Of a stretch of DNA of 64,000 nt, positions 35,409 to 57,813 are shown piece after piece; the stretch's first letter is position 1; every line of letters begins with the position of its first letter. The stretch lies in contig NC_017249.1 in assembly GCF_000284375.1 (NCBI RefSeq), positions 3,388,001 to 3,452,000 of the forward strand, given 5' to 3'. Source of the stretch: Bradyrhizobium japonicum USDA 6 (GTDB lineage Bacteria; Pseudomonadota; Alphaproteobacteria; Rhizobiales; Xanthobacteraceae). The position numbers were made by a program, and so were the translations under genes. The notes under the pieces were generated by a model, which made no database searches, had not been told where the DNA came from, and worked only from the letters and a program-made list of their open reading frames with translations.

Positions 35409-36437
35409 CTAGCCGGGGAAGTCGCGGAACTCCTTGACGAGATTAAACGGAATTTTCCACCCGGCGCCTCCCCCGCGCATCAGCATCTTGATGTCTTCCG
35501 CCCTGTTTTCTTTTCCGGTTTTCGGATCGGTCTCCAGCGTGTGGCCTTGGCTGTCCCAAGGTTTGGTCGCGCTCTTCGAGTAGTAGCCGAGAAAATGGCC
35601 GGATTCATGGGCAGATGTGTTGGGCCCGCGTTGCGAGCTGATGAGGGCAAGGTCCAGGCCTCGAGCAAACGAGCCATTGGCGGGGCCGCCATTGGACCAA
35701 ACCTTATCGACGCAGAAAATGGTTAGATGGGCGCCCTGAACTTTGTGTTTGACGAAGAAGCCCTTCAGTTTTTCGACGTCGATCACATCGGGAAAGATCG
35801 CTAGGCTCGCATCCTTCATGCCAGTCGCATTGGCGAGCTCCTGTTTGATGGCAGCCTGCGAGTCGTCGATGACCAGCCAGTCGCTTGGCACCCGCTCGAA
35901 GCGGATGTTGGCCTGCGGTCTCCATATATTGTTCATCGTCAGCAATTCATCTTGCTCGTTGCAGGGCTTCTTGGCGTGAAACGCCGGAGCGCCGCCACTC
36001 CCCGGAACCATGACATTGCGGAACGCCACCTTGATCTTGATTTCCGGCAGCACGACAACATGGAGCTTGGCTTCGATCTTCCGGCCGGCCGACCGGGCCA
36101 CCACCTCCAGGCCGGGAAAGCCAATCGGCTTAATCCGGCCATTGATTTCGAAAAACCGTGCATCGCCATTGAAGGTGGCGGGAAGCGACGCCGCCCTGAG
36201 CTGCGGATCGATATCGGGTTTGGAAAAGGTGTCTCTGGCCTGCATGACGCGTCTAAGGGTATCGGCGCCATCGATCTCCTTGATCCCGAGGGCATGGGCG
36301 TTAGGATCGACTTTGAGCTTTCTTCCGGGATCGATCAGCGCCACGATGTTGGAGCCGCCGAACGGCACCACCATGCCCGGCGGGCTGCGGCGCTCATCGA
36401 TGCCGGAGCGCCGGAAAACCTCTTGAAAGGCGGCCAT
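35409..36437 (-). CDS. Putative metzincin-like metalloprotease (HESGH)
   Basis: A 342-residue protein with no signal peptide or membrane helix. Near the C-terminus is HESGHFLGYY (H277-H281), followed by a further His in DSQGH and a later MLMRGG that could be the Met-turn of metzincin proteases. The gap between GHFLGYY and the third His is longer than in the classical HExxHxxGxxH motif, so the third ligand is uncertain. ATG 36437 has AGGAGA upstream. It opens an island of four HExxH genes next to the T6SS, which suggests a secreted toxin or processing enzyme; no immunity gene is obvious. Confidence 0.72.
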   Translation of the reverse strand: MAAFQEVFRRSGIDERRSPPGMVVPFGGSNIVALIDPGRKLKVDPNAHALGIKEIDGADTLRRVMQARDTFSKPDIDPQLRAASLPATFNGDARFFEINGRIKPIGFPGLEVVARSAGRKIEAKLHVVVLPEIKIKVAFRNVMVPGSGGAPAFHAKKPCNEQDELLTMNNIWRPQANIRFERVPSDWLVIDDSQAAIKQELANATGMKDASLAIFPDVIDVEKLKGFFVKHKVQGAHLTIFCVDKVWSNGGPANGSFARGLDLALISSQRGPNTSAHESGHFLGYYSKSATKPWDSQGHTLETDPKTGKENRAEDIKMLMRGGGAGWKIPFNLVKEFRDFPG

Positions 36438-36525
36438 GTCTGGTTCTCCTGTCTTAGTTCGGTTCGTCAACGCGAAATCTTGCGCGCAGAAATGAGAGCC
36501 TCGTTCGGCCCCGGAAACACCATCT

Positions 36526-36574
36526 GGCCGGCCCCCGCGGCGAGATGCAGAAAATTTCGGCGGCGAAGTTTCAT
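36526..36574 (-). pseudogene. Leader-peptide remnant of a TctC/Bug-type binding protein
   Basis: MKLRRRNFLHLAAGAG is nearly the Tat leader shared by the many TctC solute-binding proteins of Bradyrhizobium (MKLPRRNFLHLAAGAA). The frame loses all TctC character within a few residues and stops after about 35. This marks the beginning of a lost gene upstream of the metzincin gene. The identification rests on remembered family sequences. Confidence 0.55.
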
Positions 36575-36810
36575 GGCCAGTCCCTCCGCAAAAATTGGGC
36601 ACGGACGACAATAAGCGTAGCCTACTCCGCTTTCCGGAGAGCGCGGAAGGCCAATCAATGTCCGCTAATGGCCCTGTTGAGGGCGCTCGCACCTCGCCTT
36701 TGAACTTCCCCGACCGCTCACGTCACTACTAGTCATAGCCGTGGTGGGAGCCGACGCTCCCTCCAGCGCTCAGCTTTGGGCAGGCCACGCCAGCAACGGG
36801 AGAAATTGCC

Positions 36811-37377
36811 ATGGGACGCGCGCCGCAGCCACTGCCGCAATACACCCCGCCGGGCCCGGTGGAACAGATGCCGAATATGGCGACGCAACCGCAGTGCTCG
36901 CCGCTTGCCAAGGTTCACAGCGCCGATGTCTTTCCCTACGTGGCCAATGAAGTCGCGACGTCCCGCACCGAGGTCGGCCATCTCGGTGTGGACGTCAGTC
37001 TGGTCCCGCCGGCCGGCATCTGCCAATATCTCATCATCTGGGATTTCGGCGTCGACTGGCGGCATCTCAAGAACATCGCCAAGCGCGATCCGCTGTTGGC
37101 AGCACAGCTCATCCGATTCGAGAGCGACAAGTCGTTGCAGTTCCAGATCGTCGGATACAGCGACAGCACCGGCGGCGAACGGAACAACATCTTCCTGCGC
37201 ACGGGCCGGGCCAAGAACGTCTTTCATCTGTTCGGCCCAAGCGCCCGCTCGCGCGTCTTCTCCGTCAAGCCCGCTTCACACTATGAGTATCTGAAGGACA
37301 ACACGACCGTGATGAACAGGGCCGCCAATCGCGCTGTGGTCGTCGAAATCTTCGCCGGCGGCGGCGGGACGATCTAG
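36811..37377 (+). CDS. OmpA-like domain protein without signal peptide
   Basis: A 188-residue protein. Residues 70-185 form an OmpA/MotB-type peptidoglycan-binding domain: QIVGYSDSTGGERNNIFLRT with the diaminopimelate-binding Asp, RTGRAKNVFHLF, and the end RAANRAVVVEIF. The Pro-rich N-terminus has no signal peptide or lipobox, so the route out of the cytoplasm is unclear. It is followed 115 bp later on the same strand by an HExxH protein. OmpA-like and HExxH proteins also pair in phage-tail-like injection loci, which is why I group it with the island. Confidence 0.75.
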   Translation: MGRAPQPLPQYTPPGPVEQMPNMATQPQCSPLAKVHSADVFPYVANEVATSRTEVGHLGVDVSLVPPAGICQYLIIWDFGVDWRHLKNIAKRDPLLAAQLIRFESDKSLQFQIVGYSDSTGGERNNIFLRTGRAKNVFHLFGPSARSRVFSVKPASHYEYLKDNTTVMNRAANRAVVVEIFAGGGGTI

Positions 37378-37492
37378 CCACATTCCAACGCGAACGGAGG
37401 GGCGGGCGGCTCCTAATCGTGCAGTACAGCGTTTCAGCGTTTGCGGGGCCCAGCCGGACCACTATTGCTCGACCACGCAAGGGAGATAGGTG

Positions 37493-38395
37493 ATGCCACT
37501 GACCGAAGGCGACGTCCTGGACACACTCAGTGACTCGGTCGCGCTTGGCATCGAGTTCTACGTCGACAAGATCCATATCAAGGGCGAATACTTGACGACG
37601 GTTCGCGATCACATTCGTGCCGGCAATATATTGGTGAAGGGCGGCACTCAGGATCTCGCCTTCTACGATCAGGTTACGGATGTTTTGTTGACGCAGAAGA
37701 AGTCGCCGCCCGCAAATGATAGCGATCGGGCGCTGCTCCTGCATGAGTGCGTCCATGCCATGATCGACGTCTATGATCCTGACGGCGCTGTTACGCGCCA
37801 CATGGGCGAACTGGCGGCCTACCTCACTCAAACCACATATAGTGTTCGCAAGAATCCGTCGTCTAACCGCAACGGCACCGCCCCCTGGGACAAATTCTGG
37901 GGCGACCTCTACGCCACGGTGCGCGCCAATAAGCTCGACACCAGCGCGGGCAACGGCGTCCGGATCCCGTCGGCGACGCTCGAAAATCTGCGCCGGCAGC
38001 TCGCAGCGCTGCCTTTTGTGAACTATGGAAAGTTCACCAAAGAAGCGACGGGCGTATCGGATGGGCTGACCCGCAGGAACTTGTTTCTGTCGAGCGATGA
38101 ACCCGTGTCCATGCGATCATCGAGCGTTTCCCACGAAACTTATGTTGATCCGAGCGATGACTATTTGGTGCGCACCCTGATGGAGGCTTACGCGAGCGCC
38201 GATGTCAGAGGCTATGGCAGCCGACTGCGCCGGCTACGTCGTGATTTTCTCTATTGCTCGCTGTCTCGCGCCCATGAACTCCAGAAGAGGTTTTCGGTGC
38301 GGAAGCGTGGAGACCGGCTCTCCGAACTGTTTCACGATCGCCTGTCGCATGGCGGCCGCGCAATTCTTCTCCGTGTGCTTGCGCTGCGAAGCTGA
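37493..38395 (+). CDS. Putative zincin (HECVH) protein
   Basis: A 300-residue cytoplasmic-type protein with HECVHAMID (H84-H88) and, about 20 residues later, GELAAYL supplying a possible third (Glu) ligand, as in gluzincins. The rest is not recognised; the C-terminus is basic (RLRRLRRDF, VRKRGDR). GGGAGA stands before ATG 37493 (a GTG lies immediately upstream). The motif region aligns with the HESLH protein at 40815 (HExxHA..D, then E...AY), so the two look like paralogues with different surroundings. Confidence 0.7.
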   Translation: MPLTEGDVLDTLSDSVALGIEFYVDKIHIKGEYLTTVRDHIRAGNILVKGGTQDLAFYDQVTDVLLTQKKSPPANDSDRALLLHECVHAMIDVYDPDGAVTRHMGELAAYLTQTTYSVRKNPSSNRNGTAPWDKFWGDLYATVRANKLDTSAGNGVRIPSATLENLRRQLAALPFVNYGKFTKEATGVSDGLTRRNLFLSSDEPVSMRSSSVSHETYVDPSDDYLVRTLMEAYASADVRGYGSRLRRLRRDFLYCSLSRAHELQKRFSVRKRGDRLSELFHDRLSHGGRAILLRVLALRS

Positions 38396-38520
38396 CCAGC
38401 ACGCTGGAAAAATCGGAAAGATACTCTTGAGAGGAAGAATTCACGACCGCACCGCGTCGAATTCTCGGCGTCTTGGTGCGTCATTTGAGTGGACTCCCGG
38501 CCGCTCCCTTGCAGTGGATT

Positions 38521-39540
38521 CTAGTCCAGGTGCCTTGCGCGCAGATCTTGAAGGTCCTTTTTCAATGCCACAAGATCCAGCCCGCGAGGAAAAGTGAGGC
38601 GTCCAGAGCGGATCACGAGCCGGACGTACGGATAGCGCTCCTCGGCAAGCATCGGAGAGCTGATTTTGTATTTGTGCCAATCTTCAACGATGTGTGCTTG
38701 TTGCTCGACGTTGTAGGATTCCCAGGAATCGCCCGGCGTGTACTCGTAGCCGGAACCGATTGTCTGCGCCCAGAAGGAGCGCGCCATCGTCCAGTTTGAA
38801 TCGTTGAACGCCTGCCACACATGGGTCATTTCGTGCACGAAGAGGTCGCAAATGCGACCGAAGTCGTCGCACAAGAGACCGAAGGTGGGGCTGGGCGATG
38901 CCAGGTTACTGAACGCGACACTGCCAAGATTGATGGCATACCGCATGCTCGGCACCATGGGATTGCTCCCCCTGAAGAACGGTCCATCGTTCGTCCACGG
39001 TCTTCCGCCTGCTCCCAGGCCATTGGTAATCGCAATTGTCTCCCACGGCGGCAGCGTCGGGCCAAAAACGTTGCGCGCGAAATCCCGTTCGCTCACGTCC
39101 AGCACGCGCGCGAAGTCGGGTCGGCTTCCTTCACATTCCGGCGGGGTCGGAGCCGCTGGAGTGGGCGCAACCGGTGGAGTGGGCGCAATCGGCGGGGGAG
39201 GCGGCGTACCTGGCGGCAGATAGATGAATCCCCCTCGCCATCCACCTCTGCCGCCGGTCGTACCGGAGGAAAACGCGAAATTCTGGCGATCGGGCGACAT
39301 CGCGCGGCTGCCTACATACTCGGCCAGGTACCAGTTCACCTGCCGTGTGGCTTGTTGGAAATCGCGCTGCTTGACGAGCTTTATGCCCGGAAAATTGAAC
39401 TCGATGAGGTCCCAGGGGTCGATGCCGATCCGCTTGGCAAGGGATATCCAGGTCTCGCCTGCCGTCACCGCATGCCGGATTCCTGCGGGCGGTACGTAGC
39501 TTTCGACGACAGGCTTCAAGGGCCTTTCCTGGTTCGGCAA
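38521..39540 (-). CDS. LysM-like / proline linker / zincin (HEMTH) protein
   Basis: A 339-residue protein in three parts: an N-terminal LysM-like domain (about 20-60; HAVTAGETWISLAKRIGI), a Pro/Thr linker (about 107-135; runs of PPPPP and PTPPVAPTPAAPTPP), and a C-terminal domain with FVHEMTHVWQAF (H236-H240) and a later EQQAHIVEDW that could give the third ligand. The domain plan fits a cell-wall-binding enzyme or a cargo of a contractile system. There is no signal peptide. It is convergent with the HECVH gene. Confidence 0.74.
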   Translation of the reverse strand: MPNQERPLKPVVESYVPPAGIRHAVTAGETWISLAKRIGIDPWDLIEFNFPGIKLVKQRDFQQATRQVNWYLAEYVGSRAMSPDRQNFAFSSGTTGGRGGWRGGFIYLPPGTPPPPPIAPTPPVAPTPAAPTPPECEGSRPDFARVLDVSERDFARNVFGPTLPPWETIAITNGLGAGGRPWTNDGPFFRGSNPMVPSMRYAINLGSVAFSNLASPSPTFGLLCDDFGRICDLFVHEMTHVWQAFNDSNWTMARSFWAQTIGSGYEYTPGDSWESYNVEQQAHIVEDWHKYKISSPMLAEERYPYVRLVIRSGRLTFPRGLDLVALKKDLQDLRARHLD

Positions 39541-39734
39541 TGTAAGACCTCCCCCCGCTAATTCCTGCGGAACTACGCGTTCTCGCCACCAATACTTTTA
39601 TTCGTCGCCGCTACCTCGAGGCGGTTCGATGGTCCCATTCATTCTGGTCACCAACTGGCAGTGGCAAATCGAAGTGCCTCATTCGTCGGTTGGAGGCGTA
39701 GACACGGAGCAATGTCGCACCAGCGATATCCGCT

Positions 39735-40613
39735 TTAGCGCCGGCCTTTTGACTTCGAGCCGAGCAGGTCATGCGTGCCGCTGATGCTCACGGTTCCGGA
39801 GCACTCGAACCCGCCGAAAAGTCCGCAGGAGCCGGTGACCGTAACGCGTAAGTCTTTGCGCTGGTACATGTCGACCGAAATGCCCACGCGCGAAAAGTCG
39901 TTCGCGCTGTTCGGCAGGATCAGATCGATGTGCTCCGCGGCCCATTGCGGTATATGCTTGTTGCTCTTCCAGAACAGCTCATTGCCGGCGTGATGCACGA
40001 AGTTCGGCCCGACCGTAAGGGCGCCGTCCACGCCCTCGAATACGAAGCCCGTTTCGTCGATGTGCACGTTCACCCGATCAGGTGCTACGGCGAAATGCAA
40101 CGAGGTGATGTCCTGGGGCTGCGGGTCTTTGCCGAATTGCGAGCTGTAGGCGTCGCTCCATTGTCCGCGGTCGCGCCCGAGCCCGAAGCCGTGGCGGCCC
40201 GGGAGATCCCGCGTTGAGAGCGGCCTGTCCGACAGCTTTGGGCGCCAGATCTCCCGAAACCCCTTGCCGATCGTTGCCGCCATCGACAGATCGAGGGCCC
40301 AATGCGACGCTTTCTCCGGGCTTTGCCCTTCGGCGAAGGCGTCGAATCCGTCCGTCGTCTTGGCAATGCGCAGCTTCTTGATCAGCTCTTCCCAGTCCTT
40401 GGGCAGGAAGGTGACGCCGTCGAGCGTGGTCGTCGCGGCAGCGACACCATACTTCTCGAGCTGGTGTCGGATGTAGGGCTTCTCGTCATAAAGGCGCACA
40501 TCCGGGTTGGGGCCGGCAAAATAATTCTTCAAGTCGATCTGCGGCCGCAGCATGGTCAGTCGCGCCGCGATCTTCCGGTAAGTGTCGGTCGTCGTCGGAT
40601 CGGTCGTCGTCAT
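39735..40613 (-). CDS. Hypothetical protein in the zincin island
   Basis: A 292-residue soluble protein with no signal peptide and no recognised motif. It contains Asp/Lys-rich N-terminal segments, HWALDLSMAATIG and SLHFAVAPDRVNVHIDETGF, and a Gly/Ser-rich tail (GSCGLFGGFECSGTVSISGT) with a basic end. ATG 40613 was chosen because upstream codons in frame look non-coding. It lies between and on the same strand as the LysM protein, facing away from the HESLH gene (divergent). It might be an effector or chaperone, but nothing in the sequence says so. Confidence 0.65.
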   Translation of the reverse strand: MTTTDPTTTDTYRKIAARLTMLRPQIDLKNYFAGPNPDVRLYDEKPYIRHQLEKYGVAAATTTLDGVTFLPKDWEELIKKLRIAKTTDGFDAFAEGQSPEKASHWALDLSMAATIGKGFREIWRPKLSDRPLSTRDLPGRHGFGLGRDRGQWSDAYSSQFGKDPQPQDITSLHFAVAPDRVNVHIDETGFVFEGVDGALTVGPNFVHHAGNELFWKSNKHIPQWAAEHIDLILPNSANDFSRVGISVDMYQRKDLRVTVTGSCGLFGGFECSGTVSISGTHDLLGSKSKGRR

Positions 40614-40814
40614 GGGGCGCACTCCGAGGCAATCCTCGCCCCAAATTGGTCTCACCCGGACGGGTTCGGGTTCAATGCCGGCTCGTTCGACCAAGCTGCC
40701 GCCCGGCCCAGGTCACTCGAATTCCTGTCGCGCCAGTGCAATGACTGTTTGAACCTGCTGATCGGAAACGGCGACCATTATCCATGGGGTAGTGCAAACA
40801 ACGAGGACGATCAA

Positions 40815-41444
40815 ATGTCACTGCGGGGCAGGGTGTTGGACGTACTCAATGGCCCGGCAGTCGCACGCATGCGCTTCCGGTTTCCGATCCGCGGCAGCCA
40901 CGTGACGATTGCGCCGCAAACGTTCCATCACGTCGCCCGCGCGATCCGGTTGGGGCAGGTCACCGTCAGACCTCCGACGGATCTCGCGGCAGGCGTTGCT
41001 GCACAATACAACGATGTCGCGAGAACCAGGGCGGACGGCACAGCGGTTGCGGCGAACACGCTGGAGGTCGTGTCGGCGACGGGGCGGCTGGACGAGGCCT
41101 ATGTCGTCCACGAGAGCCTGCATGCGGCATACGATCTGTTGCGTACAGGCCTTGATGCCAATGCCGAAGAGGCGTCTGCCTACGTCTGCACGGCGCTCTA
41201 TTGCCGCATGACAGGCCTGCCCCGCCCTCGCTGGGCCAACGGGCCGATCTACGCCAATGCCGCAGAGGTCGCCCGAACGCTGCTGTCCCAGTATCAGAAG
41301 GGCGATCCCGGGATTCCCTGGGTCGGCGAGCATGAATGGAAGATGCTGCGCGCAGGTGTTGGCCTTGATCCGGTCTATGCCAGCGGACCCGGAGGTATTC
41401 TCACGGGATGGCTCCTCGGCCAGCAATATACCCACGACGGCTAG
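40815..41444 (+). CDS. Small putative zincin (HESLH) protein
   Basis: A 209-residue protein with AYVVHESLHAAYDLL (H99-H103) and NAEEASAYV about 15 residues later, a possible Glu ligand. It lacks signal peptide and membrane segments. GAGGA is seven bases before ATG 40815; a longer in-frame extension exists but overlaps the divergent neighbour antisense. It resembles the HECVH protein around the motif. Convergent with the T6SS-linked methyltransferase gene, with a hairpin between them. Confidence 0.7.
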   Translation: MSLRGRVLDVLNGPAVARMRFRFPIRGSHVTIAPQTFHHVARAIRLGQVTVRPPTDLAAGVAAQYNDVARTRADGTAVAANTLEVVSATGRLDEAYVVHESLHAAYDLLRTGLDANAEEASAYVCTALYCRMTGLPRPRWANGPIYANAAEVARTLLSQYQKGDPGIPWVGEHEWKMLRAGVGLDPVYASGPGGILTGWLLGQQYTHDG

Positions 41445-41530: not shown

Positions 41531-43117
41531 TCACGCGACCAGCAGGCCCAGCTTGCCGACCATTGCAAGCGAGCGTTGAACGCTTTCTCGCGTCGACAGC
41601 AATAACGGCTCGGCAGGCTGCCCGGCACTATCCTTCTGGTCTATCCGGATGGTCGGGCCGAATTTTTCGGTCATTTCGGCCGTGATCTGGTCGATGGTCC
41701 GCGCTCCGTCGAGCAATTGCAGGAAATCCCTGGTCCGGTCGTCCTCCAACTGCACCGTTTGGTGGAGGAGGTTGGTGACGAGCGGACCTGTTTGCGCTTG
41801 TCTTCGCGCGAGCAGGCTCGCCTGCGGATGCACGGTAGCTTCCTTCAACAGAAAGGGACGCGACAGCAGGAACGAAACTTCGCCGCTGCAAGCCAGGATG
41901 AACATCGCCTCAGTCAACACCCTTTGGTCATCATCTGCCTGCCGGTCGCCCAGCAGCGCGCGGGCCCCATCGAGCAGCTCGTCGAATGAAAGTGCTCGCG
42001 GCCAGGCCCGGCCCAGACATAGATACGCGGCCTTCAAGAGCGGATTGGTCACCGTGACCCTGCTGCCGTCCTGGTTCTCGAATTCCATCGCGGAATCGTC
42101 GGTCACGCAGGCGTCGGGGTCGACCGGGTTGGTCGTGCTCAGCAAATGGAACCTGGTGACGAAATCGAGGTCGATCTGGCGGGATAGCGAAATGCTGTCG
42201 TGGCAGAGCAAGGTGCGCCGAAAGCCGTTGCCGTCGATGAAGTCCTGATATTGATCGCGTGCCATGAACTCGCTCTCCGGGAAGCGCTGCAACGTTGCGC
42301 GAACCTCCTCGGAATAGCCGGCAAGATAGCGTCGTGAAAAATCAGCGTCGCCCAGATATTGCAGGCCATGGCGGCTTGCGTCCTCGGCCACCTCATGCAG
42401 CAGGAACGCCTCGGCGCCATCATCGAGATCGTCGTGAAACAGTAACTCGTCGGGGGATTTAAGGACGCGGTTGTACTGGTCGCGCATGACTGCGCCGTGC
42501 ACCGAGTTGGCCTTCGAGCCGTCGCTCAGGAACTTCAGGATCGCGCGGGCCTGTCCGACCTTCTCCTTCATGCCGGTGAGACGGCGGGTGTGATACCGCA
42601 TCATGTCGCGGACCATGTCGCGAAGATGCGAGAACGGGTGCGCATTGTAGCTGACGTAGCAGACCCCGCGCGGAGCCAGGTTCTGCTTGAAGATCATCAT
42701 CATCTTCTCGCGCACCGCCGGCGGTACCCAGGAATACACGCCGTGCGCCAAGATGTAGTCGAACTCCCCGAAGCCTGTGTCGACATTCATGATGTCGCAG
42801 TGGAGGAGCTTGATGTTGCTCAGGCCCAATGTGGCGATATTTCGCTGGCCGCGCTCGATCGTCACGCCGCTCAGGTCGACACCGACGAATTCGCTGCTTG
42901 GATATTGAAAGGCCATCGGCAACAGGTTGCCGCCAACGCCGCAGCCAAGCTCCAGCACCCGGCAACGCTCGACCGGCGCTGACTGCATGCCGTAAACGGC
43001 GGCAATGGTAGCAAGATGGTTCGGATGAGTGAGCCCGTAGACGTGGCCAGGGTAGTAGACCTCGTCGTATGGCGTGGGACCAGCGTTCGGGTGGCGATGC
43101 TCGGTTTGAATGTTCAT
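41531..43117 (-). CDS. SAM-dependent methyltransferase with regulatory domain, T6SS-linked
   Basis: A 528-residue protein. Residues 45-200 form a class I methyltransferase (motif I LELGCGVGGN at 55-64; VGVDLSG; HGVYSWVP); the middle (about 220-330) matches the methyltransferase regulatory domain type, and the C-terminus contains winged-helix-like segments. It starts six bases after the tssH stop with GAGGACG as ribosome site, so it is the last gene of the T6SS minus-strand operon. Its target is unknown; modification of a T6SS part or effector is a hypothesis from linkage. Confidence 0.83.
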   Translation of the reverse strand: MNIQTEHRHPNAGPTPYDEVYYPGHVYGLTHPNHLATIAAVYGMQSAPVERCRVLELGCGVGGNLLPMAFQYPSSEFVGVDLSGVTIERGQRNIATLGLSNIKLLHCDIMNVDTGFGEFDYILAHGVYSWVPPAVREKMMMIFKQNLAPRGVCYVSYNAHPFSHLRDMVRDMMRYHTRRLTGMKEKVGQARAILKFLSDGSKANSVHGAVMRDQYNRVLKSPDELLFHDDLDDGAEAFLLHEVAEDASRHGLQYLGDADFSRRYLAGYSEEVRATLQRFPESEFMARDQYQDFIDGNGFRRTLLCHDSISLSRQIDLDFVTRFHLLSTTNPVDPDACVTDDSAMEFENQDGSRVTVTNPLLKAAYLCLGRAWPRALSFDELLDGARALLGDRQADDDQRVLTEAMFILACSGEVSFLLSRPFLLKEATVHPQASLLARRQAQTGPLVTNLLHQTVQLEDDRTRDFLQLLDGARTIDQITAEMTEKFGPTIRIDQKDSAGQPAEPLLLSTRESVQRSLAMVGKLGLLVA

Positions 43118-43122
43118 CGTCC

Positions 43123-45762
43123 TCAATTCCACGAATATGCGAACTTATCGTTCTCGATCGAGACCCGCGCCTTCTTGATTTCTTCCTTGGCAAGCGATTT
43201 GCTAAGGAACTCGCGCGACAGCTCCGGGAGCAGGGTGTTGGTGATGATGTTGTCAATCATTCGCCCGCCGGAATCCGGGTCGTTGCAACGTGACACTATG
43301 TGCTCCACGACCGCGTCATCGTAGTCGAAGGACGCGTTATGATTGTCGCGGAGGCGTCGTCCGATCCGGTCGAGCTGCAACCGAACGATCCCGGCGAGCA
43401 TCTCGTCGGATAGCGGGAAGTACGGTATCGAGACGATGCGTCCGAGCAGCGCTGCAGGAAACACCTTCAGCAATTCCGGCCTCAGCATCTTGGCGAGCTC
43501 TTCCGGCTCGCTGCGATACTTTGGATCGCGCGCGAGACCCATGATCAGATCGGTGCCGACGTTGGTGGTAAGGATGATCAAGGTGTTCTTGAAGTCGATC
43601 CGCCGCCCGTTGCCGTCTTCCATGGTTCCCTTGTCGAACACCTGGAAGAAGATCTCGTGGACGTCGGGATGAGCTTTCTCCACCTCGTCGAGCAGGATGA
43701 CGCTGTAGGGCTTGCGCCGGACAGCCTCCGTGAGGCGCCCACCTTCGCCGTAGCCGACATAGCCGGGAGGTGCACCCTTCAAGGTCGAGACGGTGTGCGC
43801 TTCCTGGAACTCCGACATGTTGATCGTGATCATGTTCTGCTCGCCGCCGTAAAGGGTCTCGGCAAGCGCCAGCGCGGTTTCGGTTTTGCCCACGCCGGAT
43901 GGACCAGCCAGCATGAACACGCCGATCGGCTTCGACGGGTTGTCCAGTTTGGCGCGGCTGGTCTCGATTCGCTTGGCGATCATCGTCAGCCCATGAGACT
44001 GGCCGACGACGCGGCGGTTGAGGATCTCCGGTAGTTTCAGCACGGTTTCGATCTCGTCGCGCATCATCCGGCCGACCGGGATGCCGGTCCAATCAGAAAC
44101 AACGGACGCCACCGATTGCTGGTCTACATGGGCATAGACCATCCGCTTTTCCGGATTGATGCTCTCAAGTGTGTCGAACTTGCCGCGCAGCTCCGCGCGC
44201 CTGGCAGCCGGATCGTCGCCTTCCTTGGGTTCGGACAGGATCTCTCGAATGCTGCGGATGTCCTTGACGAGCGCCTGCTCTTTGGCCCAATCGGCTTCGA
44301 GGTTCGTCAGCTTGTCCTTCAGTGCTGCAATGTCGTTGTCGATCACTACGATGCGCTCGTCGCCCTCAATCCCAAGATCACTGTCGCTGACGAGTGCCGA
44401 TCTCTCCGCTTCACGAGCGGTAATCGCAACGCGTGCATCCTCGATCAGGGCTGGCGTCGCGCTCTGGCTGATGGCCACGCGTGCCGAGGCGGTGTCAAGC
44501 AGGCTGACCGCCTTGTCCGGCAGCTGCCGTGAAGGAATGTAGCGGTGGGACAAGTTGACCGCTGCGACGATGGCAGCATCGGAGATGCGAACCCCGTGGT
44601 GCTTTTCCATCGGACCGAGAAGTCCGCGCAGCATGACGCAGCAGGTCTCCACTTCCGGCTCATCGATCTGGATCGGCTGGAAGCGTCGTGTGAGCGCGGG
44701 ATCTTTCTCGATATACTGGCGATATTCTGCCCATGTGGTGGCGGCGATCGTGCGCAGCGTGCCACGGGCGAGAGGAGGTTTCAGGAGATTGGCCGCATCA
44801 CCGGTGCCGGCCGCGCCGCCGGCGCCGATCAATGTGTGGGCTTCATCGATGAACAGTATGATGGGGGTGGGTGAGCTCTGGACCTCGTCGATCACCGAGC
44901 GCAAGCGCTGCTCAAACTCACCCTTCATGGAAGCACCGGCCTGCATCAGGCCGATATCGAGCGCACAAAGCCTTACACCGCGGAGCGGTGGCGGCACGTC
45001 GCCGGCGGCGATTCGCTGGGCGAATCCCTCGACAACTGCGGTCTTGCCGACGCCAGCCTCGCCGGTAAGAATTGGATTGTTCTGCCGCCGTCGCATCAAC
45101 ACGTCGATCAGCTGGCGGATTTCTTCGTCCCGGCCAAGGATCGGATCCATCTCGCCCGATTTGGCCTTGGCGGTGAGATCCTGAGAGAACCGGTCGAGCG
45201 GCGTCGTCCCCTTGGGACCCGCTTGGGCCGCGCCTTCCGTGCCTGCACCGACCAGGCCCGAACCGTCCATCGGCCGCATGGTTTCCTCGTCGGAGCCGGC
45301 CCAGACGTTGCGGCGCTCCGCGGCGAGTGCGTCGACGTTGACCTTGGCGAATTCCTGCGAGAGGTTGTTCAGCGTGCGACGAATATCGTTCGATTTCAGG
45401 CCCGCCACAAGCAGATGACCGGTGCGGATCTGGGTTTCGCCAAAGAACAGCGTGGCATAATGCCAGCCCCGATCGAGCAGATCGATGACCGGATTGGCGA
45501 CGCCCGGCATGTCGGTTTCGTTCTTACGAAAGCCATTGATCACGCCGGCAAGGTCCGACAACAAGCGTGCCCGGTCGAGCTTGTAATGATCGACCGAGAG
45601 GCTGAGATCGTTGCGTTCCTGCTGCAGGATATGAAACAGCCAGTGCGCTAGCTCGACGTTGCGATTGCCGGCGCTCTTCGCGTGACGCAGGGCCTGTATG
45701 AAGGCATCATAGCCGGCCCGGTTCAGCTTGCCCGTTACAGCCTCAATGCTGATGTCGGTCAC
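43123..45762 (-). CDS. tssH: T6SS ATPase TssH (ClpV)
   Basis: An 879-residue AAA+ unfoldase that disassembles the contracted TssB-TssC sheath. It has a Clp-N domain (about 1-155), first AAA module (Walker A GEAGVGKT at 234-241; ILFIDEAH), a middle coiled-coil domain, second AAA module (GPSGVGKTE at 620-628; VILLDEVEKAH) and a ClpB-type C-terminal domain. The length is normal. It follows tssG by 97 bp on the same strand. The short start MTDISIEAVTGKLN is typical of ClpV proteins, setting it apart from ClpB. Confidence 0.96.
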   Translation of the reverse strand: MTDISIEAVTGKLNRAGYDAFIQALRHAKSAGNRNVELAHWLFHILQQERNDLSLSVDHYKLDRARLLSDLAGVINGFRKNETDMPGVANPVIDLLDRGWHYATLFFGETQIRTGHLLVAGLKSNDIRRTLNNLSQEFAKVNVDALAAERRNVWAGSDEETMRPMDGSGLVGAGTEGAAQAGPKGTTPLDRFSQDLTAKAKSGEMDPILGRDEEIRQLIDVLMRRRQNNPILTGEAGVGKTAVVEGFAQRIAAGDVPPPLRGVRLCALDIGLMQAGASMKGEFEQRLRSVIDEVQSSPTPIILFIDEAHTLIGAGGAAGTGDAANLLKPPLARGTLRTIAATTWAEYRQYIEKDPALTRRFQPIQIDEPEVETCCVMLRGLLGPMEKHHGVRISDAAIVAAVNLSHRYIPSRQLPDKAVSLLDTASARVAISQSATPALIEDARVAITAREAERSALVSDSDLGIEGDERIVVIDNDIAALKDKLTNLEADWAKEQALVKDIRSIREILSEPKEGDDPAARRAELRGKFDTLESINPEKRMVYAHVDQQSVASVVSDWTGIPVGRMMRDEIETVLKLPEILNRRVVGQSHGLTMIAKRIETSRAKLDNPSKPIGVFMLAGPSGVGKTETALALAETLYGGEQNMITINMSEFQEAHTVSTLKGAPPGYVGYGEGGRLTEAVRRKPYSVILLDEVEKAHPDVHEIFFQVFDKGTMEDGNGRRIDFKNTLIILTTNVGTDLIMGLARDPKYRSEPEELAKMLRPELLKVFPAALLGRIVSIPYFPLSDEMLAGIVRLQLDRIGRRLRDNHNASFDYDDAVVEHIVSRCNDPDSGGRMIDNIITNTLLPELSREFLSKSLAKEEIKKARVSIENDKFAYSWN

Positions 45763-45859: not shown

Positions 45860-46891
45860 TCAAATCGCCGGGGCATCGCCTGCGGCGGCCCGACGGGCGC
45901 TCAAGCGCTCGCCGAGCTGAAAGCGGGCATCGCGGCGATATTCTTCCGTGGAAGTCCAGTTCGGCGAGATCCAGGTGGTCCATCCAAGTCGTCCGCTCTG
46001 TCCGAGCCTGACCGGAACGACCTCTCCCGCCGGAATGGCGAGCTCCACCTCCCATTCCAATTCGTCGCCGATATAGAAGAATACGGCGTCCGCCAGAGGC
46101 TCCGACAGGTTGCGCGCTTCGGTCGGCAAGAACTGTTCGTACTGGGTGAAATTCTTGACGAAGACTCGCACCCTGATCTTGTCCTCGACGCTGAATACGC
46201 GTGAGCCCAGAAGCGCGTCCCGGCCGAGACTGGCATGGGTTCCGCCGAGCCGGCTGCAATGACTTGGGTCGAATGACAGCCAGGTGCCGACAAATTCGTC
46301 GATCTCGACCTTGACGTCGAACAGCCCCTGCAGGAACCGCGTCAACCGTGACGCACACTTCGCTCTGGGGGAGATCAGTCCGGCAAAGCTGAGCTTCGCC
46401 ATGTCCGGTACGGTGTCTCGATCGGCCAAAACGTCGGAGCCGAGGCCGGCGAAGGAGCCTACATAGGCGATGAAGCGATCATCCGCCGGACGGTCGTGCT
46501 GAGCGATCGGCCGCGCATCGGCCCAGGCGCGAAAGAAGAGTTGCAGAAAGCGTCCGTTGAGCAGATCGAGAAAGCGCGGGAAGGCGTCATCCCGCATCAG
46601 CCACCAACTGAGGCTTTCGTCGGTGGTGGCAAGCGGCAGCGCGCCCTGCGGCCCCAGGAGACCGAGAAATTTGACGAGTATCCTGATCCGGCCACCCAGG
46701 TCGTCGACGGCCGCAAGGTTGGAGGCGGGGAACTCCAGATAAGGCACTTGGCCGAGGTCGATATACTCCTCGCGGCGCGCAGCACTGTCACCGATCCGCG
46801 GTCGATCGGAGTTGGCGCGCTCGAGCTGGCGCAGCGTGTTGAAGAAATCGAACCGCCAGGGCTCCGCCTTCATCTGGTCGATCAGCGTCAT
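45860..46891 (-). CDS. tssG: T6SS baseplate subunit TssG
   Basis: A 343-residue baseplate wedge protein. The N-terminus (MKAEPWRFDFFNTLRQLERA) and segments such as LPLATTDESLSWWLMRDDAF, RFLDLLNGRFLQLFFRAWAD and SPRAKCASRLTRFLQGLFDV are diagnostic. Its start overlaps the tssF stop by four bases (ATGA). The frame stays open further upstream inside tssF, but ATG 46891 gives the family N-terminus. It forms the TssE-F2-G-K wedge complex around VgrG. Confidence 0.94.
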   Translation of the reverse strand: MTLIDQMKAEPWRFDFFNTLRQLERANSDRPRIGDSAARREEYIDLGQVPYLEFPASNLAAVDDLGGRIRILVKFLGLLGPQGALPLATTDESLSWWLMRDDAFPRFLDLLNGRFLQLFFRAWADARPIAQHDRPADDRFIAYVGSFAGLGSDVLADRDTVPDMAKLSFAGLISPRAKCASRLTRFLQGLFDVKVEIDEFVGTWLSFDPSHCSRLGGTHASLGRDALLGSRVFSVEDKIRVRVFVKNFTQYEQFLPTEARNLSEPLADAVFFYIGDELEWEVELAIPAGEVVPVRLGQSGRLGWTTWISPNWTSTEEYRRDARFQLGERLSARRAAAGDAPAI

Positions 46892-48855
46892 AGAGGTCTC
46901 CGCGTGCCCATGCGCGGCGGCCAACGCATGATCTCGCCGCGTTCCGGCGTCGAGACGACCGTCTGTGTGAAGGTATTGAAGCCCGAATAGTCGGCGAAGA
47001 AGCGCTCCAGCACGGCTCCGAGCAAGAACACGCCGCTGCCCTCGAATGCCTTCTCGTCGAGGGTGATAGTAATCTCCAGGCCGCGTGCTGCGCCGCTGCC
47101 GGTGCGCTCGCGCACCCGCCGTACGACAGGCCGGCTTTCTATGCTGCGCACGCCGCGGATCTTGCGTTCCGTGGCGTCGTCGAACTGGTCGGCGAACAAG
47201 GACAGCATTTCGCGCAGGGCTCCGGCGTTCTTGCCGCCACCGCGCTCGACGAGGCCAAGATAGTTCAGGCTCAGCATGTTGATCAGCCGCCAGCTGACGA
47301 TTCCGCTGTTCGCGATCTCGCTGCGGCTGCGCATCTGCGCCACGATCGGCTCGCGTGGTCGGGTGGGACCAGCGACGCACATCAGATCAAGGGAAGTATC
47401 GTCCAGCAGGCGGAAGTCGGCGCCCCCCTGGCCGACCGGCAAGTGTTCCGTGAGATGCCGGTTGGAGCACAGCGCCCGGACGCTGAGTTCGGCGACCGCA
47501 CCTTCGCCGCTTAGTTCACCGGGCTCCAGCAGAGACAGGAACATGTCCGTCCCGGTGTAGTCCGAGGATGCGCCATAAGTCTTTTCTCCCACTGTGCGGC
47601 GCCGGGGCAACCGTCGAACGGTGAAATAGAGCCCCTCGACCGATCCGCTGGTCCGGTCGACGGCGGCCGAATACAGCGGGCGCACCGGCCGCTTGTCCTT
47701 GTCAGCCGGAAAGTGCGCGTAGACTTCGAGCACCTGGTGCGGTTCGTATTCCAGATAGCGGCTGCGATCGGGCACGACATGGTACTCGTGCGTATTCGAC
47801 TTGACGGGGATGCGATCGCTCGTCTTCTCGAACAGGTTGATCGCCGGCGCGCTATAGAGACTGAAAGTATCGGGCCGTACCGCGGCGGCAAGCCGTGAAT
47901 TGTGTTCATCGAAAGCGAAGACGATATCGATCGATTTGCTGCGCAGCCGTGGTATCACGCTGCGAAGTCCCGTCAGGTTGAAGCCGAGGAACTTGCGTGG
48001 AAACATGAAATATTCCCGCAGCAGCTCCGAGCCGCGAAAGACCCGGTTGTCGTTGGGAAACAGCGACTCGTTTTCGTCGAAACCAATCTGCTGCACGCAG
48101 TCATGGGGCGCACGAGTCACCACCGGATCGCCGAAATCATCGAGATGCCGGAAGTAGACGCCCCTGCAATTCGAGATCAATTGCTCGTAAAGCGCAATGG
48201 CGTCGGATTCCGCGCCTGAAAGGTAGATCGGAAGCTCGCTCGTGCGGCAGCCTGCAAACCAGGTTTCCGGCTTGGCCCTAGCCTCTGCGTCCGGCAGCTC
48301 CTCATCGAGCCGGGCCGCGGTGCGGTGGGTCAACGATAGCCTGAGCCCAGCGATGACGTCGCCGCCGACGGGAATCCCGAGCGCCTGCAGCGCGCCTGCA
48401 GTCGAGAAGTATTCGGCGCCGGTGACGTCAAATGGCCAAAGAACGATATCGCGGCAAAGTCGAAATCGGCAGGAAAGACTTCGTTCTCTCTCGCGATAGG
48501 CGGCATCGAAATAGGCGCCGCGCGCGATCTTCCTGCCATCGCGTAGCGCTGGGTCGGCATAGGGGGGGCGAGCCGTGACCAACATGGCCGACGGAGTCGG
48601 GGCAAGGTAATTCGGAACCAGTTGCTCGAGCAGGTTTGCAGTGAATTCCGGGAACTCATGCTTGAGCTTGAGCTGAACGCGAGCGGCGAGAAATGCGGCG
48701 CCTTCCAGCAATCCTGTGATCATGGGATCTGAGCGATCCCGGATCAGCCCACCGAGGCGTTCTGCGATGCCGGGATACTCTTCGGCGAAATCCCCGGCCT
48801 GCTCGTAGAGCAGTGACAGTTCACGATTGTAAAAATCCAGGAATTCGCGGTTCAT
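46888..48855 (-). CDS. tssF: T6SS baseplate subunit TssF
   Basis: A 655-residue wedge protein beginning MNREFLDFYNRELSLLYEQA, the classical TssF N-terminus, followed by YPGIAERLGGL and DPMITGLLEGAAFLAARVQL. The C-terminus ends in a gp6-like region (FADYSGFNTFTQTVV). ATG 48855 is two bases after the tssE stop and is preferred to an upstream in-frame start. Overlaps tssG by four bases. Confidence 0.95.
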   Translation of the reverse strand: MNREFLDFYNRELSLLYEQAGDFAEEYPGIAERLGGLIRDRSDPMITGLLEGAAFLAARVQLKLKHEFPEFTANLLEQLVPNYLAPTPSAMLVTARPPYADPALRDGRKIARGAYFDAAYRERERSLSCRFRLCRDIVLWPFDVTGAEYFSTAGALQALGIPVGGDVIAGLRLSLTHRTAARLDEELPDAEARAKPETWFAGCRTSELPIYLSGAESDAIALYEQLISNCRGVYFRHLDDFGDPVVTRAPHDCVQQIGFDENESLFPNDNRVFRGSELLREYFMFPRKFLGFNLTGLRSVIPRLRSKSIDIVFAFDEHNSRLAAAVRPDTFSLYSAPAINLFEKTSDRIPVKSNTHEYHVVPDRSRYLEYEPHQVLEVYAHFPADKDKRPVRPLYSAAVDRTSGSVEGLYFTVRRLPRRRTVGEKTYGASSDYTGTDMFLSLLEPGELSGEGAVAELSVRALCSNRHLTEHLPVGQGGADFRLLDDTSLDLMCVAGPTRPREPIVAQMRSRSEIANSGIVSWRLINMLSLNYLGLVERGGGKNAGALREMLSLFADQFDDATERKIRGVRSIESRPVVRRVRERTGSGAARGLEITITLDEKAFEGSGVFLLGAVLERFFADYSGFNTFTQTVVSTPERGEIMRWPPRMGTRRPL

Positions 48856-48856
48856 G

Positions 48857-49405
48857 CTAAAGTCGGTTGATCTGGATATCGCCGCTGTCGAGGTCGACGT
48901 CGGCGACAAATTCCACGGGGACGTTGAGCGGTTCGGCTTTCAGGTCGGCGTGAACGATGAAGCGCAGCTTGAGTTGCTCGGGGCCGACCGAGCCGTCGCG
49001 TCGGACCCGGATGGTGTTGCGATCGAGCCTCGGTTCATAAGTCGTGAGCGTCGCGCGCAACGCGTCGGTGAGCTCGTCGTCGGCGACCTCATCGATCGAA
49101 CGGTGGGCAATATCAGGGAAGCCAAAGTTCAGGATTGAGGTTCGGACGCAATCGCGCCCGTCCAGATCCAGGGTCGATTCCAGGGCAATGGTATTGAGGA
49201 GCGTTTCGAGGTCATGGGAGACCTCGCGCCGGAGCAACGTTTCCGAGATTGGAAATCGGCCCGCGCTCCGCCGCCCTGCAATGACCCGCTCGCCAGACTC
49301 ATCGCGTAGATTGAGCTTCTTGCGTGCGTCGCGCGCTTCATGGGCTGAGCGAAATGCCAGCATCAATGGGGGAGAGAGCCGATCCTTCCTTGGTGCAATG
49401 GTCAT
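48857..49405 (-). CDS. tssE: T6SS baseplate subunit TssE (gp25-like)
   Basis: A 182-residue lysozyme-like baseplate protein related to phage T4 gp25. The gp25 core is at about 60-165 (LRREVSHDLETLLNTIALES; TSILNFGFPD; TLTTYEPRL). The start MTIAPRKDRLSPPLMLAF is the family pattern. It lies directly upstream of tssF with one base between stop and start. Confidence 0.92.
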   Translation of the reverse strand: MTIAPRKDRLSPPLMLAFRSAHEARDARKKLNLRDESGERVIAGRRSAGRFPISETLLRREVSHDLETLLNTIALESTLDLDGRDCVRTSILNFGFPDIAHRSIDEVADDELTDALRATLTTYEPRLDRNTIRVRRDGSVGPEQLKLRFIVHADLKAEPLNVPVEFVADVDLDSGDIQINRL

Positions 49406-49585
49406 TCACGGTCCCCATGACGTCCAACTCGCATGCAATCTCGGGGGACGCTCGTTGGTGTCCGACTTGACGTCGCCCAGCAGGCTTTCGGACCCGCAAC
49501 CGGGCCGAACGAGAGGTGCGATAAAAGTCGCACCGCTTGGCGCCGGTTCGCCATTCGCAACCGGCGCCAGGCGAGGGGCCGACAA

Positions 49586-50071
49586 TCAGGCCCATTCCTT
49601 GTTGGCAGGAACATCCCAGCCAAACGTCGGCGAAGCTCCGGCGCCACCCTTCTCCGTCTGGGTCTTGTAGATCATCTTGACCTTTGCGAAGTTCAGACTC
49701 ACGTTTTCGGTAAGCCGATCTTCGCCGTGCGATCCGCCTGTTGATACGCTAGTCACGAGAACCTGCTTCATCTCGATCTTGAGATATTCCAGCGGGTTTT
49801 CGCCGGCCTTGCGGACCGTCAGGATCGCGCTGTCAATATGCTTTCCGTTTGCGCAGACCTTGAAAAGCTCCGGCGTGGCCTTGTCAACGAAGTGCGTGAA
49901 GTGAAGATCCTGCACGCTGACCTTGCCGGCGCCGCCGCCCGATCCGCTGTGGAAGGTGCCGGTCTGGCTCTCGCCAAACGACCAGCTCAAAATATCGATT
50001 TCGTCTTTATGCTTGTCGTCCAGCGACTCGCCCTTGATCGGATCGAGTTTCAGGAAGATGTCGACAGCCAT
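49586..50071 (-). CDS. hcp: T6SS tube protein Hcp (TssD)
   Basis: A 161-residue protein that stacks as hexamers into the inner tube. The start MAVDIFLKLDPIKGES and the segments ILSWSFGESQTGT, KVSVQDLHFTHFVDKATPEL, KQVLVTSVSTGG and ENVSLNFAKVKMIY are typical. It sits between tssC and tssE, 48 bp downstream of the tssC stop and 180 bp upstream of tssE. Being the most abundant component, it may have its own promoter or a stabilised message, but none is evident in the short gap. Confidence 0.96.
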   Translation of the reverse strand: MAVDIFLKLDPIKGESLDDKHKDEIDILSWSFGESQTGTFHSGSGGGAGKVSVQDLHFTHFVDKATPELFKVCANGKHIDSAILTVRKAGENPLEYLKIEMKQVLVTSVSTGGSHGEDRLTENVSLNFAKVKMIYKTQTEKGGAGASPTFGWDVPANKEWA

Positions 50072-50119
50072 AGCATGGTCCTCTCAAATTTCTGTGTGTA
50101 CGGTTACGATGCTGCAGCG

Positions 50120-51622
50120 TCAGGAGCTGGGACCTGGCAGGCGTGAAACCAGACTGAGGCCGACATCCATCGCTTCCAATTGAAAGTGCGGACGAAGAAA
50201 GAAGCGCGCGTTGTAATATCCCGGGTTCTCCTCGTTTGCTATGACCTCTACCTTCGCAGCGGCCAGCGGCTTGCGCGCTTTCTGAGCTTCTGACGATAGG
50301 GCTGGGTTGGCATCAACGTACTCGTTGATCCAGGTTTGTAGCCAGACCGTCAGCTCATCCTTCTCCTTCATGGATCCGATTTTGTCGCGAACCATGCACT
50401 TCAGATAGTGCGCAAAGCGAGACACTGCGAACATGTAGGGCAGACGTGACGACAGGTTGTCGGACGCGGTTGCATCCACGCCCTTCTCGCCGAAATACTT
50501 CTTCGGCTTGTAAAGCGACTGGGCGCCGATGAAGGCGGCCTTGTCGGTGTTCTTGCGATGGATCAGCGGGATGAGGCCCGCTTTTGCAAGTTCGTGCTCG
50601 CGGCGATCGCTGATGGCGATCTCGGTCGGGCATTTCAGGTCGACGCCACCGTCGTCGGTCGGGAATGTGTGCGTCGGCAGATTGATGACCTCGCCGCCGG
50701 ATTGCACACCGCGGATGCGCGTGCACCAGCCGAACTCTTTGAAGGCGCGGTTGATGTTGACCGCCATCGCATAGGCGGCGTTGATCCAGCCGTATTTGTC
50801 GCCGGTGTGCCCGTCTGTCTCCTCCTCGAAGGCGAACTCCTCCACGGGCTCCGATTTCGCGCCGTAGGGGAGGCGACCCAGCGCGCGCGGCATGCACAGG
50901 CCGAGATAACGCGAGTCGTCCTGGTCGCGCAGTCCCTTCCATGCGGCATATTCCGGTGTGTCGAACACCTTGCCGATATCGCGAGGGTTGGACAATTCGG
51001 TCCACGAGTCCATCCCCATCAGCGTCGGCTCGGCGCCGCTGAAGAAGGGGGCGTGTGCGGCGCCGGCGATCTTGCTGAGATCGCGCAGCAACTGCACGTC
51101 GGTGGGGAGGTGGCTGAAATAGTAGTCGCCGATAAGGCAGCCGAACGGCTCGCCGCCCAACTGGCCGAACTCATATTCGTAGATCTGCTTGAACAATGGG
51201 CTCTGGTCCCAGCGCGCGTCGGGATAAAGCCGCAGGTTACGATACAGCTCGTTCTTCGAGACGTTCATCACCCGGATCTTGAGGTTGGCGTCGGTCTCCG
51301 AGTTGAAGACGAGGTAATGGAGACCCCGCCAGGTACTTTCGATCGCCTGGAATTCGGGCGCGTGAATGATCTCGTTCATCTGCGCGGTCAGCTTCTGGTC
51401 GATCCGCGCGATCATCTCCTCGATGGTATCGAGAACGTCCGACTTGATGACGCTCGAGTCCTTCAATGCCTCTTGAACGAGCGTGGTTACCGCGTTGTCG
51501 ACCTCGGTCGCTGCGCGCTCGGTGCGCGGTTTGAAGCTTTGCTTCAGCAGAGTGGCAAACTCGTCAGCTTCGACGGTCTTGACCTGGGTGGTGCTCTCTT
51601 TGTGAACAGCTTCTTTTGCCAT
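50120..51622 (-). CDS. tssC: T6SS sheath large subunit TssC
   Basis: A 500-residue contractile-sheath protein that pairs with TssB. Diagnostic segments include FQAIESTWRGLHYLVFNSET, FGCLIGDYYFSH, RFAHYLKCMVRDKIGSM and the C-terminal HFQLEAMDVGLSLVSRLP. It begins 16 bp after the tssB stop. The C-terminal helix normally recognised by ClpV belongs to TssC's N-terminus (EADEFATLLKQSF here). Confidence 0.96.
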   Translation of the reverse strand: MAKEAVHKESTTQVKTVEADEFATLLKQSFKPRTERAATEVDNAVTTLVQEALKDSSVIKSDVLDTIEEMIARIDQKLTAQMNEIIHAPEFQAIESTWRGLHYLVFNSETDANLKIRVMNVSKNELYRNLRLYPDARWDQSPLFKQIYEYEFGQLGGEPFGCLIGDYYFSHLPTDVQLLRDLSKIAGAAHAPFFSGAEPTLMGMDSWTELSNPRDIGKVFDTPEYAAWKGLRDQDDSRYLGLCMPRALGRLPYGAKSEPVEEFAFEEETDGHTGDKYGWINAAYAMAVNINRAFKEFGWCTRIRGVQSGGEVINLPTHTFPTDDGGVDLKCPTEIAISDRREHELAKAGLIPLIHRKNTDKAAFIGAQSLYKPKKYFGEKGVDATASDNLSSRLPYMFAVSRFAHYLKCMVRDKIGSMKEKDELTVWLQTWINEYVDANPALSSEAQKARKPLAAAKVEVIANEENPGYYNARFFLRPHFQLEAMDVGLSLVSRLPGPSS

Positions 51623-51638
51623 GGTCCCCGTTCCTTCC

Positions 51639-52166
51639 TTAGCTCTCGGTGCCAGGTTCGGTCGACTGGCTGATCGCGCGTTCCCGAAGCGCTGCCATCA
51701 GTTGAGGATCGGCCAGAAGTTTTTTCAGCTGGTCCTCGGCGGCTACCTTGCCATCCATGTAGCGCAGCAGGTTGGCAAGTTGTTCGCGCGCCTCGAGCAG
51801 CTTGGCTGTAGCCGGCACCTGGCGGGCGACGGCCACGGGAGTGAAGTCGGCCATCTTGTTGAAGCGCAGATTGACCGAAAGTTTTTCGTCTGATCCGTCG
51901 CTGAGACGATTGGCGACACGCGCCGTCACGCCGGGCTGGATTGCCGCCATGCGGCTGTCGAAATTGTCCATGTCAAACTCGAGGAATTTGCGCTCCTCGA
52001 CCTTGGTCTTCTCGACGCCCGGGTTATTGCCGGAAAGGTCGGAGAGGACGCCCATGACGAACGGCAGTTCGATCAGCCGCTCGGCGTCGTAAGGATCTTC
52101 GTATGTGATGTGCACGCGTGGTGCGCGATTTCGACGAATGAATTTTTGACCGCTATCTGTAGCCAT
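51639..52166 (-). CDS. tssB: T6SS sheath small subunit TssB
   Basis: A 175-residue sheath protein. The segments RAPRVHITYEDPYDAERLIE, LPFVMGVLSDLSG and FLEFDMDNFDSRMAAIQPGV are diagnostic. It forms the helical sheath with TssC, encoded next to it. It lies 127 bp after the tssA stop; this gap is large enough for a promoter, though none was identified. Confidence 0.96.
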   Translation of the reverse strand: MATDSGQKFIRRNRAPRVHITYEDPYDAERLIELPFVMGVLSDLSGNNPGVEKTKVEERKFLEFDMDNFDSRMAAIQPGVTARVANRLSDGSDEKLSVNLRFNKMADFTPVAVARQVPATAKLLEAREQLANLLRYMDGKVAAEDQLKKLLADPQLMAALRERAISQSTEPGTES

Positions 52167-52293
52167 GGTTCCCTCACTACGAAATCGCTTTAGACGTCGA
52201 ATTTGCGCGACGCAGATCGGCTAGGGGACTTCAAGTTGCTGCGGTCGGCAAACATCCTTGTGTCCATTTAGTGCCCTCGAGCGAAAGCTGGGT

Positions 52294-53607: not shown

Positions 53608-53956
53608 ATGCGGGCCGTCCATCTGCTCGATCACGGCCCCGCTGCCGAGCCCGTGGCGACTAGGGGATCGCGCGGGGGGCATGATCCGAATCTATACCTA
53701 TGGGTCAGATGCCTGCCGACCTTGGTTCATTCCCGAAGATCATGCCATTTTCGCGTGAACCGGCAAGCTCTTGGAGCCGACTACTTGATGGCCCGAGGTG
53801 GTTCTTTGACGGCCGTTGCGGACCGTCAGGAAGCCCAGCCCTGGGGCGGGCTTGCCGGCACAGCCGGTGGCGCGCAGGATTTCCGTCGTTCTTGCATAAC
53901 GTCTGATCAGCTTTTTGCAGCGGGTCATTCGATCGAAGGAGGGAGTTTAAGCCCAC
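53608..53956. promoter_or_regulatory. Divergent promoter region tssA / vgrG
   Basis: A 349-bp gap from which both T6SS operons must be read. AAGGAGGGAG near 53937 is the vgrG ribosome site. A GACGG-N10-CCGTC dyad at about 53806-53827 could bind a regulator. No good sigma-54 (TGGCAC-N5-TTGC) match was found on either strand by eye. Confidence 0.5.
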
Positions 53957-55825: not shown

Positions 55826-55830
55826 CGGTC

Positions 55831-56394: not shown

Positions 56395-56406
56395 CGAGAC
56401 GATGTG

Positions 56407-57765: not shown

Positions 57766-57813
57766 ACTATCGGCGACCACGCGGCTGCCGACAATTTCTA
57801 AGTGGATGTAGGA

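Follow-up and report, generated by a model that had tools for sequence, protein, structure and literature searches.

Metallopeptidases are among the published effectors of the type VI secretion system (T6SS), and they include the VgrG2b C-terminal metallopeptidase/Tpe1 family, represented by VgrG2b of Pseudomonas aeruginosa and ACIAD0053 of Acinetobacter baylyi; VgrG2b carries a trans-kingdom label in the literature. LysM-aided loading of effectors onto VgrG has also been described, in work that lists PG_binding_1 as well (Commun Biol 2023, PMC10673891). Soybean bradyrhizobia carry T6SSs, the role of which in rhizobia has been called unclear (PMC7104290), and a T6SS effector-immunity pair has been described in Rhizobium etli (PMC10215855). 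The present analysis concerns a 64,000-nucleotide stretch of Bradyrhizobium japonicum USDA 6 (NC_017249.1, positions 3,388,001 to 3,452,000; hereafter the window), part of a 9.2-Mb single-contig genome, in which six genes, A to F, form an island next to the tssH end of a T6SS cluster. This block probably serves the adjacent T6SS as a variable locus of cargo (effectors). It is rich in putative proteases and module-shuffling, its parts have known relatives, and for two of its HExxH families (A and C/F) neither Pfam nor NCBIfam gives a match above cut-off. An initial annotation of the window knew of no described system with such a composition; the locus and the A and C/F families were indeed not found in the literature searched, whose coverage leaves out most subscription papers, but metallopeptidase effectors and LysM-assisted loading are, as noted, already published.

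The link to known effectors runs through protein D (339 amino acids (aa); 38521..39540, minus strand), in which a split LysM-like module (residues ~1–110) precedes a metallopeptidase domain (~140–310). Profile searches of the PDB, made for A, D and the LysM module, matched D to the VgrG2b effector domain (6h56) with an E-value of 8.3e-18 over the catalytic domain. The structure model of D likewise predicts a VgrG2b-type fold with HExxH and a downstream Glu, the catalytic residues being HEMTH at 236–240 and E279 on a later helix. By homology and modelled fold, then, the assignment of D as a VgrG2b-type metallopeptidase is firm. D differs from the VgrG2b/Tpe1 proteins in that its fusion partner is a LysM-like module, where they have VgrG or PAAR, and its relatives also bear an OmpA or a tail module. 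The N-terminus of D scores 17.8 bits against Pfam LysM, under the cut-off of 20.9, and a helical insertion with the signature VNWYL..YVGC seems to divide its LysM. An N-terminal LysM on a putative effector is as described in PMC10673891, and PG_binding_1 was found here in relatives; in contrast to that work, the LysM looks split and no VgrG match lay near the LysM genes of the GTDB scan described below, although the query was the VgrG of the window and a divergent VgrG could escape it.

The island is also set apart by its HExxH motifs. All four HExxH proteins listed by the initial annotation are present, its coordinates being gene ends, not motif positions. Four of the six island proteins carry HExxH, compared with one of the 36 other called genes of the window and two of 114 called genes in nine other loci of the genus (one of these two being a copy of F, in locus L031). 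Shuffling the six proteins gave a mean of 0.05 with the motif and never reached four in 2000 rounds, so the clustering exceeds chance. The motif is kept in 65 of 72 homologues of A, in 102 of 107 of F and in 44 of the 45 D-type homologues picked by the analyst from 62 hits; where it is missing, the record falls short of the query in length, in some cases of A only slightly. Moreover, the ratio of nonsynonymous to synonymous substitution (dN/dS) ranged from 0.03 to 0.24 across 16 pairwise comparisons, with values of 0.12–0.23 for A and 0.03–0.08 for E.

Protein F (209 aa; 40815..41444, plus strand, its start re-assigned within a 380-aa open reading frame (ORF)) carries HESLH and, besides D, was the protein modelled. 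Residues H99, E100, H103 and E119 are invariant across 43 aligned rows, and the model places helices at 91–109 and 115–132, so that F shows the gluzincin hallmark of HExxH followed by a conserved Glu on the next helix, a pattern shared by C and relatives. F is probably zincin-like, the fold assignment being suggestive. Protein C (300 aa; 37493..38395, plus strand) combines a C/F-type domain (HECVH) with a C-terminal tail module of ~75 aa that is common to D-type relatives, and its putative zincin assignment comes through homology to F. A frameshift in C was considered and rejected: the unusual C-terminus recurs in protein records P0143 and P0147 and was therefore taken as a real module. Conceivably, some of the HExxH domains are not peptidases: they might be metal enzymes of another kind or bind without catalysis, and F, for instance, could resemble the HExxH oxygenase domain of ChlB. 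This seems unlikely given the 102 of 107 homologues with HExxH and the invariant E119, which look gluzincin-like yet do not decide the matter.

Protein A (342 aa; 35409..36437, minus strand) is a putative metzincin-like peptidase, as suggested by its motif and weak matches. The GTG at 36692 that is listed as its start probably makes the gene too long, an ATG at 36437 being the likely start. The motif HESGHFLGYYS, with LMR downstream, resembles that of metzincins, the third ligand being unclear. ADAMTS-5 was matched in the PDB at an E-value of 0.16, level with the unrelated ribosomal protein S3, and Pfam Reprolysin_4 at 0.2, level with an unrelated family; against a LysM-linked HEVGH family, hhalign gave 80.9% with an E-value of 1.2e-5 over 54 columns. 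A homologue of 97% identity (P0170) is labelled Bradyrhizobium diazoefficiens. The zincin-fold prediction implied by the initial annotation thus fared unevenly: firm for D, suggestive for F, by way of F for C, and resting on motif and weak matches for A.

Protein B (188 aa; 36811..37377, plus strand) is a stand-alone OmpA-like protein without a signal peptide. Its earlier description as OmpA-like holds as a resemblance, with Pfam at an E-value of 0.0024 and 18.6 bits against a cut-off of 27.2, and NCBIfam OmpA-type models matching at best at 6e-6, far under their cut-offs. In the window and genome G088, the gene immediately downstream of B on its strand is C; G040, G056 and G060 have A in that position, G067 has a 433-aa protein there, and the B of G122 is without such a partner. 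Such placement before differing cargo genes would suit a loader or adaptor, and B is a candidate for that role. Protein E (292 aa; 39735..40613, minus strand), earlier called unrecognized, is of no known family, without a Pfam or NCBIfam match at an E-value of at most 1, and it is tied to this T6SS subtype, as shown below. An E-like protein of 392 aa was also seen on the tssL side of the cluster, beside a 336-aa and a (by eye) caspase-like protein (L082 14682-18876, L083 1564-5753); similar-looking copies of the latter two also occur beyond the T6SS in the genome of the window (L099 15315-18228).

Shuffling of modules is extensive among the relatives. The LysM segment was found fused to the D-type zincin, a HELAH domain, DUF5995, a HEVGH domain, the C/F-type domain, several unknown domains and, in locus L044, a C70/AvrRpt2-like cysteine peptidase (PF12385, E-value 3.4e-14), a family absent from the window. 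AvrRpt2 is a type III secretion system (T3SS) effector. The D-type domain is also fused to OmpA (P0152) and to the tail of C, the C/F-type domain to PG_binding_1 (L096), and an OmpA-like N-terminus, under the Pfam cut-off, to an unknown domain in G040 and G060. A viral origin of the LysM module was considered and set aside, none of 63 pattern matches in viral contigs being confirmed. The source genome holds a second LysM-module gene ~250 kb off with an interrupted frame (L090 ~9550-10420; G000:C1 ~3677.5-3678.4 kb), uninterrupted copies of which occur in L052, L054 and L088. In G122 and G067, an orphan LysM gene lies divergent to a 204-aa HEFGH/HELGH protein, ~26 kb from tssC (L089 9140-10908, L056 9167-10927).

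The island families follow the T6SS closely. Among 146 genomes of the genus, the T6SS subtype, defined by tssC of at least 96%, is present in 18, and any TssC found by the same query in 30; some of the searches scored only part of the first-look candidates, making absences soft. E occurs in 17 genomes (14 close copies, and three at 39% identity on the opposite side of the cluster), F in 14, the LysM module in nine and A in nine, in every case among the 18, of which G139 alone lacks E. Hypergeometric P-values, without correction for kinship, are 3e-21 for E, 3e-16 for F and 8e-10 for both the LysM module and A. These counts leave out three of the 17 reported matches to F (G100, G101 and G137; E-values 8e-5 to 2e-4), which are 535-aa ORFs, ligase-like by eye, in genomes without TssC, and one of ten to A (7.7e-4), in G139, which does carry the T6SS. 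With such weak hits dropped, A, E, F and the LysM module are confined in the genus to genomes with the subtype, rather than being found mostly in genomes without a T6SS.

Since the locus is variable and the genomes of the genus are related, the genes could be accessory hitch-hikers on a T6SS-bearing genomic island, with co-occurrence reflecting linkage and shared ancestry. This appears quite improbable, as copies lying megabases away are still confined to T6SS genomes: the LysM module at 1.25 Mb in G027 and 3.4 Mb in G070, and A in G070 at 7.1 Mb along the contig (2.7 Mb if circular). The association also persists in other phyla, and D is a relative of VgrG2b. In GTDB genomes, 23 LysM loci were found in 21 genomes, 20 of them with TssC: all eight Bradyrhizobium (overlapping the genus sample), all seven on the Bryobacterales side, three of four Planctomycetota, Reyranella and a Rhodobacteraceae metagenome-assembled genome (MAG). 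As background, TssC was present in 45/100 genomes of the order to which one Bryobacteraceae genome belongs and in 32/97 of that of one Rhodopirellula genome; two LysM genomes are part of the first sample and one is part of the second, and the two Planctomycetota MAGs may fall in other orders. On this basis the link is unlikely to arise by chance in Acidobacteriota (P 0.004) and not unlikely to do so in Planctomycetota (P 0.11). In an order-wide sample of 397 genomes, 69 with TssC, the F family occurs in five, all with TssC: two are of the genus, and the other three comprise one strong match (252 bits) and two weak ones (38 and 26 bits). In these three other genera the gene lies on a different contig or ~1.5 Mb from TssC.

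The initial annotation had likened the set to the cargo of extracellular contractile injection systems (eCIS) of the DUF4157 type. The likeness is loose: D shares the HExxHxxQ-E pattern (PMC3482391) but has no Pfam DUF4157 match at an E-value of at most 1. LysM together with DUF4157 does occur in predicted eCIS toxins (PMC11297309), and Tox-OmpA in toxins of PVC particles (PMC3482391); the association found here, however, is with a T6SS sheath gene and a neighbouring T6SS cluster (eCIS genes were not searched in these genomes), and cargo of an eCIS-type particle is a highly improbable reading.

Exchange of genes at the site further marks it as variable. MT, a conserved methyltransferase-like protein (41531..43132, minus strand), separates tssH from the cargo. 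The window and 12 further genomes of the genus share the order tssH-MT-F-E, and of the 14 genomes with F, 13 have it beside E on the tssH side; F is interrupted in G013, and E of G043 contains a stop. Past E, G088 carries D, C, B and A; G013 carries D and C along with another member of the A family, with HEIGH; and G112 carries D with a remnant of C. In G069 an M91 peptidase (PF14891, E-value 7e-8; absent from the window) occurs there with a second protein, bearing HELVH, and one of 460 aa. Judged by sequence, G049 has this set too, and G010 has a PIN-like protein (under cut-off) and the 460-aa protein. G043, G017 and G027 are among the genomes where a cargo-like gene after E is absent. At sites without E and F, G040 carries A, an OmpA-like fusion and a matrixin-like M10 protein, G056 and G060 being arranged alike, and G139 a PG_binding_1-HEIAH protein. 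The F of G139 stands alone among housekeeping-like genes on a contig other than that of its T6SS (L031 8354-8983), whose cluster lacks E.

In another reading, the HExxH proteins serve this T6SS as chaperones, as processing peptidases or as accessories of the spike and not as toxins, and E and F, near-fixed by tssH, would be components of the machine. For E and F the tie to the T6SS is indeed closer than for A or the LysM module and dN/dS is low, and a chaperone role has been proposed for DUF4157, in one case independently of the metalloprotease motif (PMC11297309). On the other hand, F is missing in four of the 18 T6SS genomes and E in G139, F-family genes are distant from the T6SS in other genera, and the C/F-type domain has LysM and PG_binding_1 modules as fusion partners, in the manner of cargo, all of which renders an accessory role rather doubtful.

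As T6SS cargo, the island proteins would be made without signal peptides, and hydropathy indeed shows no signal-like N-terminus in them, as first noted. A fused module (LysM in D, PG_binding_1 or OmpA-like in relatives), or perhaps the stand-alone module protein B, could attach them to the spike or Hcp, and they would then be secreted by injection into target cells, where the HExxH domains would bind zinc and act as peptidases, D behaving like the VgrG2b/Tpe1 metallopeptidase toxin. Delivery through the adjacent T6SS had been called attractive by the initial annotation; its T6SS reading is largely upheld by the homology of D and the co-occurrence of A, LysM, E and F, while delivery itself we infer. 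No obvious immunity genes had been noted either, and no ORF was called in the gaps of the island, nor an immunity-like one near D, a further difference from VgrG2b/Tpe1, by a caller that needs codon usage typical of coding sequence and performs poorly on short genes; a distant cognate immunity gene is possible. Because no immunity gene was seen, M91 and C70 relatives occur, and VgrG2b bears its trans-kingdom label, non-kin or eukaryotic targets are attractive; the known M91 examples HopH1 and NleD are T3SS effectors (PMC3482391). Tentatively, and with more doubt than attaches to the cargo reading itself, the split LysM, with OmpA-like and PG_binding_1 as alternatives, may be an interchangeable loading tag of a protease-rich T6SS arsenal in Pseudomonadota, Acidobacteriota and Planctomycetota, the members of which (A, C/F, D, M91, C70 and others) would often be orphans that lack immunity partners, since their targets would be eukaryotic or otherwise non-kin cells and not sibling bacteria. 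The work thus supplies candidate Bradyrhizobium T6SS cargo and a sequence tag for finding orphan candidate effectors across phyla, and the question of eukaryotic targets is now directly testable, given the unseen immunity gene and the M91- and AvrRpt2-type relatives.

The island genes, on strands −, +, +, −, −, + from A to F, are bounded by the tssH-MT end on one side and by genes labelled here as HlyD/transport-like on the other. The T6SS spans tssH (43123) to tssL (60674) and includes tssA, B, C, F, G and K, a gp25 protein, hcp, vgrG and Fha. The tssH/clpV gene (43123..45762, minus strand) was named from its Clp-type AAA domains and position, and domain searches identified tssG, tssF, gp25-like (tssE), hcp, tssC, tssB and tssA (45860..53682, minus strand), vgrG (53957..55825, plus strand), and Fha, tssK and tssL with OmpA (56404..60674, plus strand). 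A 1178-aa ORF at the expected place of tssM (60718..64000, plus strand) exceeds the window end and was named by position. No PAAR protein was met among the genes scanned, which were part of the total. Finally, a DUF6931 protein (PF22011), possibly an adaptor, is encoded directly after vgrG at 55822-56394 of the window.

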